Assembly (NCBI GenBank): GCA_022844565.1
Contig: JALHLK010000011.1
Location: forward strand, 1-57,032
Direction: 5' to 3'
DNA: 57,032 nt
Source of the DNA: Saprospiraceae bacterium
Lineage (GTDB): Bacteria > Bacteroidota > Bacteroidia > Chitinophagales > Saprospiraceae
Below, one piece after another: positions 50,057 to 56,988 of this stretch. Both the position numbers and the translations under genes were made by a program. Numbering within the stretch: position 1 is the first letter of the stretch; every line of letters begins with the position of its first letter. A model generated the notes under the pieces. That model did not search any database, was not told the DNA's origin, and was given only the letters and a program-made list of their open reading frames with translations.

Positions 50057-50413
50057 AAATTATTGAATTTTACAAAGTAAAATTAACAAGTATTAATTCA
50101 TACGCTAATTAAACGGCCCTGTAAAAATTTCTGAAAGATCAATCTCGAGTCCAACTAGTGTGTGGCATGGTACCTTGTCATCTTGGGCGTATGCTTTAAT
50201 TCTTTTGTATCTTCCATTTTCCAAAACAAAAACCTCTACCGATTCATTCATAGGCTCAACAATCCAGTATTCATTAACTCCTGCTTCCTCATATAAATCG
50301 AATTTTATCTGCAGGTCCTTTTTTGCAGTAAACGGAGCTAAAATTTCGATGATCCAATCAGGGGCACCAAAACAACCTTTTTCTTGAATTTTACTTGGGT
50401 CACAAATTACAAC

Positions 50414-50577
50414 TAGTGCTATGTTAATCCTATTGTGTCAGTTAAGTAGCAGCTATTTTTTCTTAGATCGAAAAAGAAATTCTGCGCATAGCTTTAGCTA
50501 CGTAAAGGATTTATTTTGAAGATATAAGGAAAAAGAGCAAGACTTGGGCTGGCTAAAATAGGGTTAACACAGCACTA
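50414..50577. mobile_element. Miniature transposable element, copy 1
   Basis: The element is bounded by TAGTGCT (50414-50420) and AGCACTA (50571-50577). The inverted ends extend to about 22 bases (TAGTGCTnTGnTAAnCCTATT) with few mismatches. The outermost TA is duplicated at both sides and fits a TA target-site duplication as made by IS630/Tc1-type transposases. There is no coding sequence. It is about 90% or more similar to copy 2, in the same orientation. Confidence 0.88.
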
Positions 50578-50730
50578 AATCAGGTTGAACTACTTTATCT
50601 GAGGAATTAAAATCTTTTCCAATTGATGGTAATATCACGTCAAAAGGGGCAGTAAAACAATTACACCTTTTGTTTACCAAATGCTGTTTTATTTGAAAGA
50701 ATAGATTACCGGAAACGTGTTGATGTTTAC

Positions 50731-50892
50731 TAGTGCTGTGGTAATCCTATTGTGTCGGTTAAGTCGCAGCTATTTTTTCTTAGATCGAGAAAGAAATTCT
50801 GCGCATAGCCTAGCTACGTAAAGGATTTATTTTGAAGATATAAGGAAAAAGAGCAAGACTTGGGCTGGCTAAAATAGGTTAACACAGCACTA
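50731..50892. mobile_element. Miniature transposable element, copy 2
   Basis: Same element as 50414-50577: left end TAGTGCT (50731-50737), right end AGCACTA (50886-50892), 2 bp shorter. It is the second insertion in the Uma2 frame. The two copies are direct repeats 153 bases apart. Confidence 0.88.
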
Positions 50893-51138
50893 ATAGGTGC
50901 GGGTGCCATTCTAAAAATCTTCCCTCTAATGATTTCTACCATATCGTCCATTTTAAATCGCAGGTAGTCGGCATAGGTATAATGTTGACCATATGTGATG
51001 TCTATGGGGTCATTTACGGCACTTTCTTCCATGGTAATTATACATTAATCAAATACAAAAATAGAGTAATTTCCTGATAATTATAGGTCAAATATTATCT
51101 ATTCTTATGGCTTATGATTAAAGAGAACTAAAATTCTC

Positions 51139-56005: not shown

Positions 56006-56063
56006 GAAAAAATAATAGTTGGACCTAAAAAAGATTTTCAGGTTTCAATCAATTTGTAACATA

Positions 56064-56218
56064 TTAGCCATCTACTTTAATGACGGTGCATTCTAGTTTA
56101 TTACAGATACCACCGAGATAAGCATGTAATTCTGCTTCTACTGGTGGGTATATCAGCGGTTGACGATGCTTGGTGCTGAATACAAGATGGATATAATTTT
56201 GACAAATAATTGACCCAT
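56064..56218 (-). pseudogene. Truncated, frameshifted copy of IS200-like tnpA
   Basis: On the minus strand this starts ATGGGTCAAT as in the intact gene at 56536-56988 but lacks one A after codon 6, so the frame is lost. Downstream the correct frame reads IYPPVEAELHAYLGGICNK and ends KVDG before a stop. It is part of a 198-base direct repeat (56065-56262) of 56834-57032 and covers only the N-terminal third of the transposase. Confidence 0.85.
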
Positions 56219-56231
56219 GGTTTTTGTATTA

Positions 56232-56509
56232 CGCCCTTTCAGGGCTTGTGACCGATTTGTGTTTTTATATGATGGGCTTCCACCCATCATTTGCGTATGT
56301 CACCCCTTTGGGGCTAGTTAAATCACCTTGTAAGATGAATTATCCAACGGTGTGAAATTCAGTATGCCCTACACCAAAAACAAAGCACAAAACTATCCGC
56401 CCCTATGAAGTTATGCTCTAACCCTACCAGCCCTGAATGGGCTACATACATTAAACATAGGGCATCGCCCTATGGACTAATGCTCTAACCCTACCAGCCC
56501 TGAAAGGGC
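56232..56509. repeat. Cluster of six short GC-rich palindromes
   Basis: Six hairpins lie in 280 bases: GCCCTTTCAGGGC (56233-56245), ATGATGGG/CCCATCAT (56269-56290), CCCC/GGGG around TTT (56303-56313), AGCCC/GGGCT (56429-56443), CATAGGGC/GCCCTATG (56456-56474), and GCCCT/AGGGC (56497-56509). The phrase TGCTCTAACCCTACCAGCCC occurs twice (56414 and 56481). Such arrays are typical REP-like sequences; their position beside a tnpA suggests mobilisation by it. Confidence 0.75.
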
Positions 56510-56535: not shown

Positions 56536-56988
56536 CTAATCCCAAACATACTTCTCATCATATTCAACTTTATACTTTTTTAAAAAAGCACGATACTCAT
56601 CCTGAAAGGTTTTCTTAACGTGGTGTTCGTGCTGATTAGAAATATAAGCTATTACAATATCGACTTCCGCAGGATTTACTGAAAAGGCCCCATAACCATC
56701 TTGCCAGTAAAAATTTTCATAGCCTTTTCCTTTTGTTTTAATCCACTTAGAGGAATATGATTTTAATTCCTCCATCAACTTCATTAAAGCTATCTTTTTG
56801 GAAAGCATACAAAGTATATGAATATGGTCGGTATAGCCACCTACTTTAATGACGATGCATTCTAGTTTATTACAGATACCACCGAGATAAGCATGCAATT
56901 CTGCTTCTACTGGTGGGTATATCAGCGGTTGACGATGCTTGGTGCTGAATACAAGATGGATATAATTTTTGACAAGTGATTGACCCAT
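56536..56988 (-). CDS. tnpA: IS200/IS605-like Y1 transposase (TnpA)
   Basis: This 150-residue HUH transposase has the HUH motif HIH at 55-57 in GYTDHIHILCML, and the catalytic Tyr is probably Y115 in IAYISNQHEHH. Further signatures are YIHLVFSTKHRQPLI near 9-23 and FYWQDGYGAFSVN. These enzymes move single-stranded DNA, recognising hairpins at the ends. The gene is intact. Upstream of its start, bases 57003-57032 repeat the hairpin region seen at 56232-56262, and downstream lies the palindrome cluster. No tnpB gene is present. Confidence 0.93.
   Translation of the reverse strand: MGQSLVKNYIHLVFSTKHRQPLIYPPVEAELHAYLGGICNKLECIVIKVGGYTDHIHILCMLSKKIALMKLMEELKSYSSKWIKTKGKGYENFYWQDGYGAFSVNPAEVDIVIAYISNQHEHHVKKTFQDEYRAFLKKYKVEYDEKYVWD

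Follow-up and report, generated by a model that had tools for sequence, protein, structure and literature searches.

Short stem-loop elements bounded by TA dinucleotides have been described in several bacterial groups. The RUP element of Streptococcus pneumoniae is a non-coding hairpin of 107 bases with TA termini, present in about 110 copies (PMC2229807, PMC3049150), and its ends resemble those of a resident IS630 element, IS630-Spn1 (PMC2229807). The ERIC/IRU elements of enterobacteria (about 127 bases) also have TA termini, a stable stem-loop and a target duplication, and the Correia/NEMIS elements of Neisseria (107-155 bases) combine terminal inverted repeats (TIRs), TA termini and a stem-loop (PMC2229807); the sections of this source used here name no partner IS for ERIC. 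ISY100/IS630 inserts into TA and duplicates it (PMC2170065). MITE-like elements of Porphyromonas gingivalis have ends that match resident IS5-family ISs and target duplications of variable length (PMC4596501), and a MITE of Cardinium, derived from an IS982-family element and described from one strain, adds to pseudogenes (PMC9769881). These descriptions follow excerpts of the cited articles. Our survey of the open-licence literature found no report of a Bacteroidota family of IS630-dependent hairpin MITEs.

Here, we analysed a Uma2 gene that is interrupted by two similar inserts within a stretch of 57,032 nucleotides from a Saprospiraceae bacterium (hereafter, the window). According to our best explanation, which we consider very probable, this gene was broken at two TA dinucleotides by non-autonomous hairpin MITEs that were moved in trans by an IS630-family transposase. 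The interrupted gene occupies positions 50105-51032 of the minus strand, with its ATG at 51032 and its stop codon ending at 50105, as delimited by reading frames, an alignment with 14 relatives and Pfam. Its three coding pieces (50893-51032 and 50578-50730, both recovered by tblastn with the relatives, and 50105-50413) are free of stop codons. Joining their flanks in silico, with one TA kept per site, produced 606 bases, which encode 201 residues followed by a stop codon, as anticipated by an earlier note on this DNA. The encoded protein aligned without gaps at both junctions to all 14 intact relatives. When the same 14 relatives were searched with tblastn against the unjoined window, piece 1 was found in one frame and pieces 2 and 3 in another, with some of the matches spanning an insert by a gap or extending slightly into it. 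The third piece alone matched the Pfam Uma2 family (PF05685, E 4e-20, 72.4 bits against a cut-off of 27), while neither of the upstream pieces, 46 and 51 aa long, had a Pfam match when searched alone. The same genome encodes a paralogue that is the nearest relative (68% identity over 98 residues).

The gene is thus inactivated, which for the gene itself is an ordinary case, and the absence of stop codons from its pieces suggests that the insertions are recent on the time scale of gene decay. That one TIR-bounded miniature transposon hit Uma2 twice, at a TA that now flanks both sides, agrees with the earlier note, whose coordinates, common orientation, inverted ends and TA flanks were all borne out. 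Its view that the locus gives clean proof of TA duplication is reasonable for both sites, as far as the frame and the homologues show. A search for an empty allele of the locus, in which four neighbour proteins of the window were compared with 13 Uma2 loci (flanks of up to 1.5 kb), gave no match.

The first copy of the hairpin element (W1) spans positions 50414-50577 and the second (W2) positions 50731-50892, that is, 164 and 162 bases counting both TAs. Both are on the plus strand (by the orientation of the core model in W2), with conserved cores at 50444-50546 in W1 and 50761-50862 in W2 that match our model of the inner core (R1, described below) with 102.6 and 106.2 bits, respectively. The core therefore runs antisense to Uma2. 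In W1, the left terminal inverted repeat, including its TA (50414-50434), has its partner at 50557-50577; the end pattern is found with two mismatches in each, and the 21-base ends of W1 match at 19 of 21 positions. The left repeat of W2 lies at 50731-50751, and its right repeat, ending at 50892, is one base shorter. Allowing up to three mismatches, the 21-base end pattern occurred three times in the window and never in 100 shuffles. The plus strand of W1 folds as a hairpin over its whole length (-64.1 kcal/mol, z -8.9), and inspection of the frames revealed no minus-strand frame open through W1 or W2. Both copies are therefore short, bounded by terminal inverted repeats and devoid of a transposase gene, as MITEs are. 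Rfam did not match the element in the window, nor, at E≤1, its relatives in 10 + 7 loci, where the matches listed were elsewhere or far under the gathering score. Close to the start of the window, at 41-115, Rfam matched a group II intron (RF00029, 67 bits).

W1 and W2 are 96.3% identical, differing at eight positions (six substitutions and two one-base gaps), and are the closest pair among the eight elements that we compared, with one copy in genome G296 standing at 93-94% to both. Since they are not identical, a very recent burst is unlikely, and the two had probably already diverged before landing. The earlier note had offered strong target preference or recent bursts to account for the double hit; the burst was not supported, given these differences, the lack of a third copy of this subtype in the assembly by BLAST, and the diversity of the hairpin family, which extends over three bacterial families and two classes. 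The preference fared better: in the commonest type of element in this genome, 29 of the 35 copies with both ends found are in the context C-TA..TA-G, while CTAG accounts for 91 of the 4858 TA sites in the window. These figures support a strong preference for CTAG-like targets, provided that the outer C and G are not themselves part of the element. IS630 is said to prefer TA in 5'-CTAG-3', to judge from the title of a 1991 paper by Tenzen and Ohtsubo. Both insertions in Uma2 have the context C-TA..TA-A in element orientation; with its sites empty, the gene has 46 TA sites, among them six CTAA and one CTAG when read on the plus strand. The simplest reason for the double hit would be that the first insertion broke Uma2, leaving the second free of selection.

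A BLAST search of the window's genome, one of the checks proposed by the earlier note, recovered W1 and W2 only. We also searched with a covariance model that represents the inner core and leaves out the ends. This model matched at least 74 places at E≤1e-3, a lower bound because 150 of 5913 candidates were scored, with rough E-values; one further row was the opposite strand of a place already counted. A plain sequence search thus misses the family, finding two places where the model finds at least 74. We read 72 of these places at E≤1e-3, all but C20:67327 and C92:5289; among those read, C36:10 is cut by the start of its contig, and C4:151711 and C8:134560 are among the copies without a proper right end. 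The ends fell into several types: 38 copies have GTGCTCCGTC, 22 have AGGAACTGTA, seven have ATACCAAATG, four have GTGYTRTGTTAA (W1, W2 and two copies at C3), and one has another. In this one genome, the core thus occurs together with four or more types of end. In the commonest type, 33 of the 35 copies with both ends found are 161-164 bases long, and TA was present at both ends in 46 of the 72 copies by automatic end-finding. The dispersal expected of MITEs is seen in the family as a whole, with its at least 74 places, and the Uma2 subtype has two copies by BLAST.

Many copies in this genome are intergenic. Among 71 copies with automatically assigned ends, 12 were spanned by a frame of at least 100 codons once the flanks were joined, a threshold at which broken short genes escape detection. 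W1 and W2 are two of these; of the other ten, one truly interrupts a gene, in seven the element sits at the edge of a gene, and two (C1:359087 and C8:63168) were left unclassified. The true interruption is at C36:52615-52717, where the element splits a Y1_Tnp gene whose downstream piece (195 aa) scores 25 bits (cut-off 23). At C40 and C2, adjacent copies begin 160 or 161 bases from one another, and at C29 the distance is 320 bases, so that W1 and W2, spaced by 317 bases, are not an isolated case.

Several individual copies showed further peculiarities. At C70:11716-11818, one hairpin element lies inside the apex of another. The copies at C17:75878-76038 and C3:118584-118744 are 221 bases long each, with about 58 additional bases at the apex resembling a pair of small hairpins, and a similar stretch is found at the end of contig C43. 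A 29-aa peptide-like stretch at that contig end was considered as the start of a transposase and rejected: its DNA contains small hairpins, it had no Pfam or NCBIfam match, and tblastn on plasmids returned one chance match. By eye, copies of the AGGAACTG type seem to carry an extra A/T at the left or the right end, though not at both, as though insertion or excision had been shifted by one base.

The family extends well beyond this genome. A DNA search of 60 relatives found at least 14 matches in G017, a genome of the same family, aligning in the core and not in the ends. Among 398 genomes of the family, with two candidates scored per genome, at least 33 had a match (the window's own genome included), representing 17 of 112 genera. 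In a sample of the phylum searched with the core model, under stricter filters and with up to 13 candidates per genome, at least 10 of 296 genomes had a match and 286 had none; the matching genomes comprised the window's own, three more Saprospiraceae, five genomes from a single other family of the same class, and one (G593) from another class. The core is thus also present in two further families, of which one belongs to a different class of Bacteroidota, and there it shows compensatory base changes and different ends. The cores of G593 have a GC content of 70-72%, yet they fit the model. Viral contigs searched with one core pattern, and plasmids searched with a G593 element and a W element, gave no match.

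We next consider the pairing within the element. In an alignment of 37 Saprospiraceae elements, 35 of which are 161-167 bases long, RNAalifold predicted 44 pairs, 37 of them with double changes. Overall, 88.1% of cells were paired, compared with 67.5% in shuffled and 45-55% in slid alignments; the covariation score was 0.56 against 0.20 when shuffled, and 346 cells showed double changes against 121. Because the ends were picked by mutual complementarity, the outer helix of this alignment is partly a product of that choice, and the inner helices are unaffected. Among 26 elements from nine genomes outside the training of the model, 27 of 29 pairs were double-changed and 90.8% of cells were paired against 63.4% when shuffled, figures that carry a bias towards the model's structure, by which the rows were aligned, and that count related rows repeatedly. 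Thirteen core columns are invariant across the 37 elements, whose ends differ.

The outer ends are more variable among other genomes, where the left outer dinucleotide of several members is CA, GA, TT, TG or AG and not TA, indicating that the duplication is not clean in all members. Four copies at different sites (L110, L098, L111 and L076) have CA as the left outer dinucleotide, with TA on the right in three and TC in L098. One metagenome-assembled genome (SLDF, loci L033-L069) has a second form of the element, in which the right half is joined to a quite different left block of about 150 bases; in most copies of this form, the right side continues into GCGACC, a variable stem and GGTGATGCCC.

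What might move such elements is suggested most directly by G593. On one contig of this genome, pairs of the end pattern recur 165 bases apart, in seven hairpin elements, and 1217 bases apart, in six longer elements; a control pattern also gave 40 hits, and the paired spacing is not a product of chance. The hairpins and the 1217-base element have their terminal 15 bases in common, with two mismatches at one end in five of the six long copies. The long element (L260-L265) encodes the domains HTH_32 (E 1e-18) and DDE_3 (E 6e-17) in two ORFs and is bounded by TA at both ends in all six copies, as expected of an IS630 element. In the copy read (L260), a run of seven A lies at the junction of the two transposase ORFs; such a run occurs in IS630-family elements with frameshifting. 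In this GC-rich genome, a C precedes and a G follows each of the 13 elements, and one hairpin has TC in place of the left TA. Beyond the terminal 15 bases, the hairpins and the IS do not match, and the core model found no core in the six IS copies; the hairpins are therefore not simple internal deletions of that IS.

Nine contigs of the window's genome break off 104-124 bases into one IS end, which matches the commonest hairpin type. Nine further places match this IS end over 29-32 bases at 88-90%, and at least four of them are ends of hairpins that we read. The ORF tail in the IS end has 42% identity to the G593 transposase over 33 aa (E 3e-8, in a single comparison); the 33-aa tail had no Pfam or NCBIfam match. 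A search of the assembly for DDE_3 at E≤1e-3 found none, which we ascribe to loss of the repeat from the draft, given the nine contig ends that stop within the IS. Elsewhere, 396 genomes of the family gave four weak matches to the IS end besides the genome itself, and in three of these (all but L259) no transposase-like ORF was seen by eye; no transposase was seen beside the SLDF copies in four loci. A match between hairpin ends and a resident IS630-type element was seen for the commonest type of this genome and for the G593 hairpins. For the Uma2 subtype there was no such match: neither an IS with W ends nor a transposase with its terminal repeats, for which the earlier note had suggested looking, was found. 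Judging by these shared ends, an IS630-family (Tc1/mariner-like DDE) transposase is the likely mover of the hairpins, and we infer that the Uma2 subtype uses the same kind of enzyme.

Other explanations place the origin or the movement of the inserts elsewhere. The hairpins could be old internal deletions of many different IS630 elements, with the likeness of their cores due to convergence or to a shared subterminal binding site for the transposase. The variation of the end sequences by type is as expected if different ISs were the source; however, the IS of G593 that shares its ends with the hairpins has no core, and 13 core columns stay invariant in 37 elements with differing ends, so that we regard this origin as unlikely. 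A different route would be movement as a single strand, of the IS200/IS605 or REP/Y1-transposase type, with the element recognised as a folded strand. The full-length hairpin, whose pairing is kept despite sequence change, would suit such a route, as would the presence of a Y1_Tnp gene in the window at 56536-56988. Yet the TA on both sides, one of which is retained in the frame, fits a two-base duplication, the ends match IS630 elements in two genomes, the palindromes near the Y1 gene differ in sequence from the hairpins, and another copy of the family breaks a Y1_Tnp gene, all of which makes the single-strand route very unlikely. The gene itself, on the minus strand, is IS200-like (Y1_Tnp, E 2e-26) and has palindromes of the GCCCTGAAAGGGC type nearby; a partial second copy of its start is seen by eye at about 56060-56240, and the arrangement has the look of a REP-associated transposase.

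Two further readings concern RNA. The core might be a strand-specific structured RNA whose spread was selected for its function as RNA, mobility being secondary. Covariation is strong, and by raw energies the plus strand gave the better fold in 36 of 37 elements of one set and 61 of 71 of another. This bias mostly disappeared against composition-matched shuffles of every third copy of the genome, where the plus strand was better in 14 of 24 (mean z -7.5 versus -6.9), and on these grounds we rejected a strand-specific role. The wobble count, too, depends on the strand used for prediction, with 154 G-U versus 35 A-C for the plus strand and 59 versus 28 for the reverse strand's own prediction; moreover, the core is antisense to Uma2 and the element has no Rfam match. 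We therefore consider selection for a function as RNA improbable. Alternatively, the inserts might be spliced out or bypassed at the level of RNA or translation, with Uma2 still working. In favour of this, both inserts have exact boundaries with respect to the frame, and apart from them the coding pieces are intact. Against it, the lengths to be removed (162 and 160 bases) obey the TA rule and not any splice signal, Rfam gave no intron at the inserts, the strand that folds better is antisense to Uma2, and many copies are intergenic. Taken together, these observations render splicing or bypass extremely improbable.

We thus return to transposition by an IS630-family enzyme. According to this model, such a transposase would act in trans on the hairpin MITEs, and two elements would have inserted at TA dinucleotides of Uma2, each within CTAA in element orientation, duplicating the TA and breaking the gene. 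The later of the two insertions, whichever it was, would have met no selection, as the first had already broken Uma2. Each element would be one imperfect palindrome. Its outer 12-30 bases, which vary by subfamily, would serve as the inverted repeats that are recognised, while the inner core of about 100 bases would be common to subfamilies across Bacteroidota. More tentatively, these elements may be modular hitch-hikers: a core selected for its pairing would have been kept across at least two classes while the outer 12-30 bases were exchanged, making several IS630 transposases usable. We see this as a possibility worth pursuing and would not yet favour it; the ends may have been exchanged, or they may have drifted along with their IS. 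If the elements are indeed modular in this way, the core would have its own function, either in transposition or within the host. Should the core indeed be selected while the ends change, some bacterial MITEs would be long-lived parasites that switch transposases, and not the dead-end deletion products of a single IS. G593, where an IS and its hairpins share one contig, offers a direct test case.

Among known systems, hairpin MITEs that insert at TA and depend on IS630 come closest, and RUP is their published representative. As far as the excerpts cited above describe it, RUP resembles the present hairpins in being non-coding, in folding as a hairpin, in its TA termini and in its IS630-like ends; in contrast, it has one type of end and a narrow host range, whereas the present hairpins combine at least four types of ends with one core and occur in two classes. 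ERIC/IRU and Correia/NEMIS, compared by their descriptions in the excerpted source, are similar in build and belong to other phyla. ISY100/IS630 has the insertion into TA and its duplication in common with our elements and, by the account used here, is autonomous, while the hairpins encode nothing. The two Bacteroidota examples, as portrayed in the excerpts, each share part of the picture: the Porphyromonas gingivalis elements are MITEs with the ends of resident ISs, as here, although the ISs there are of the IS5 family, and the Cardinium MITE contributes to pseudogenes, as here, although it is derived from an IS982-family element and was found in a single strain. To our knowledge, one core under several unrelated ends, across two classes, is new.
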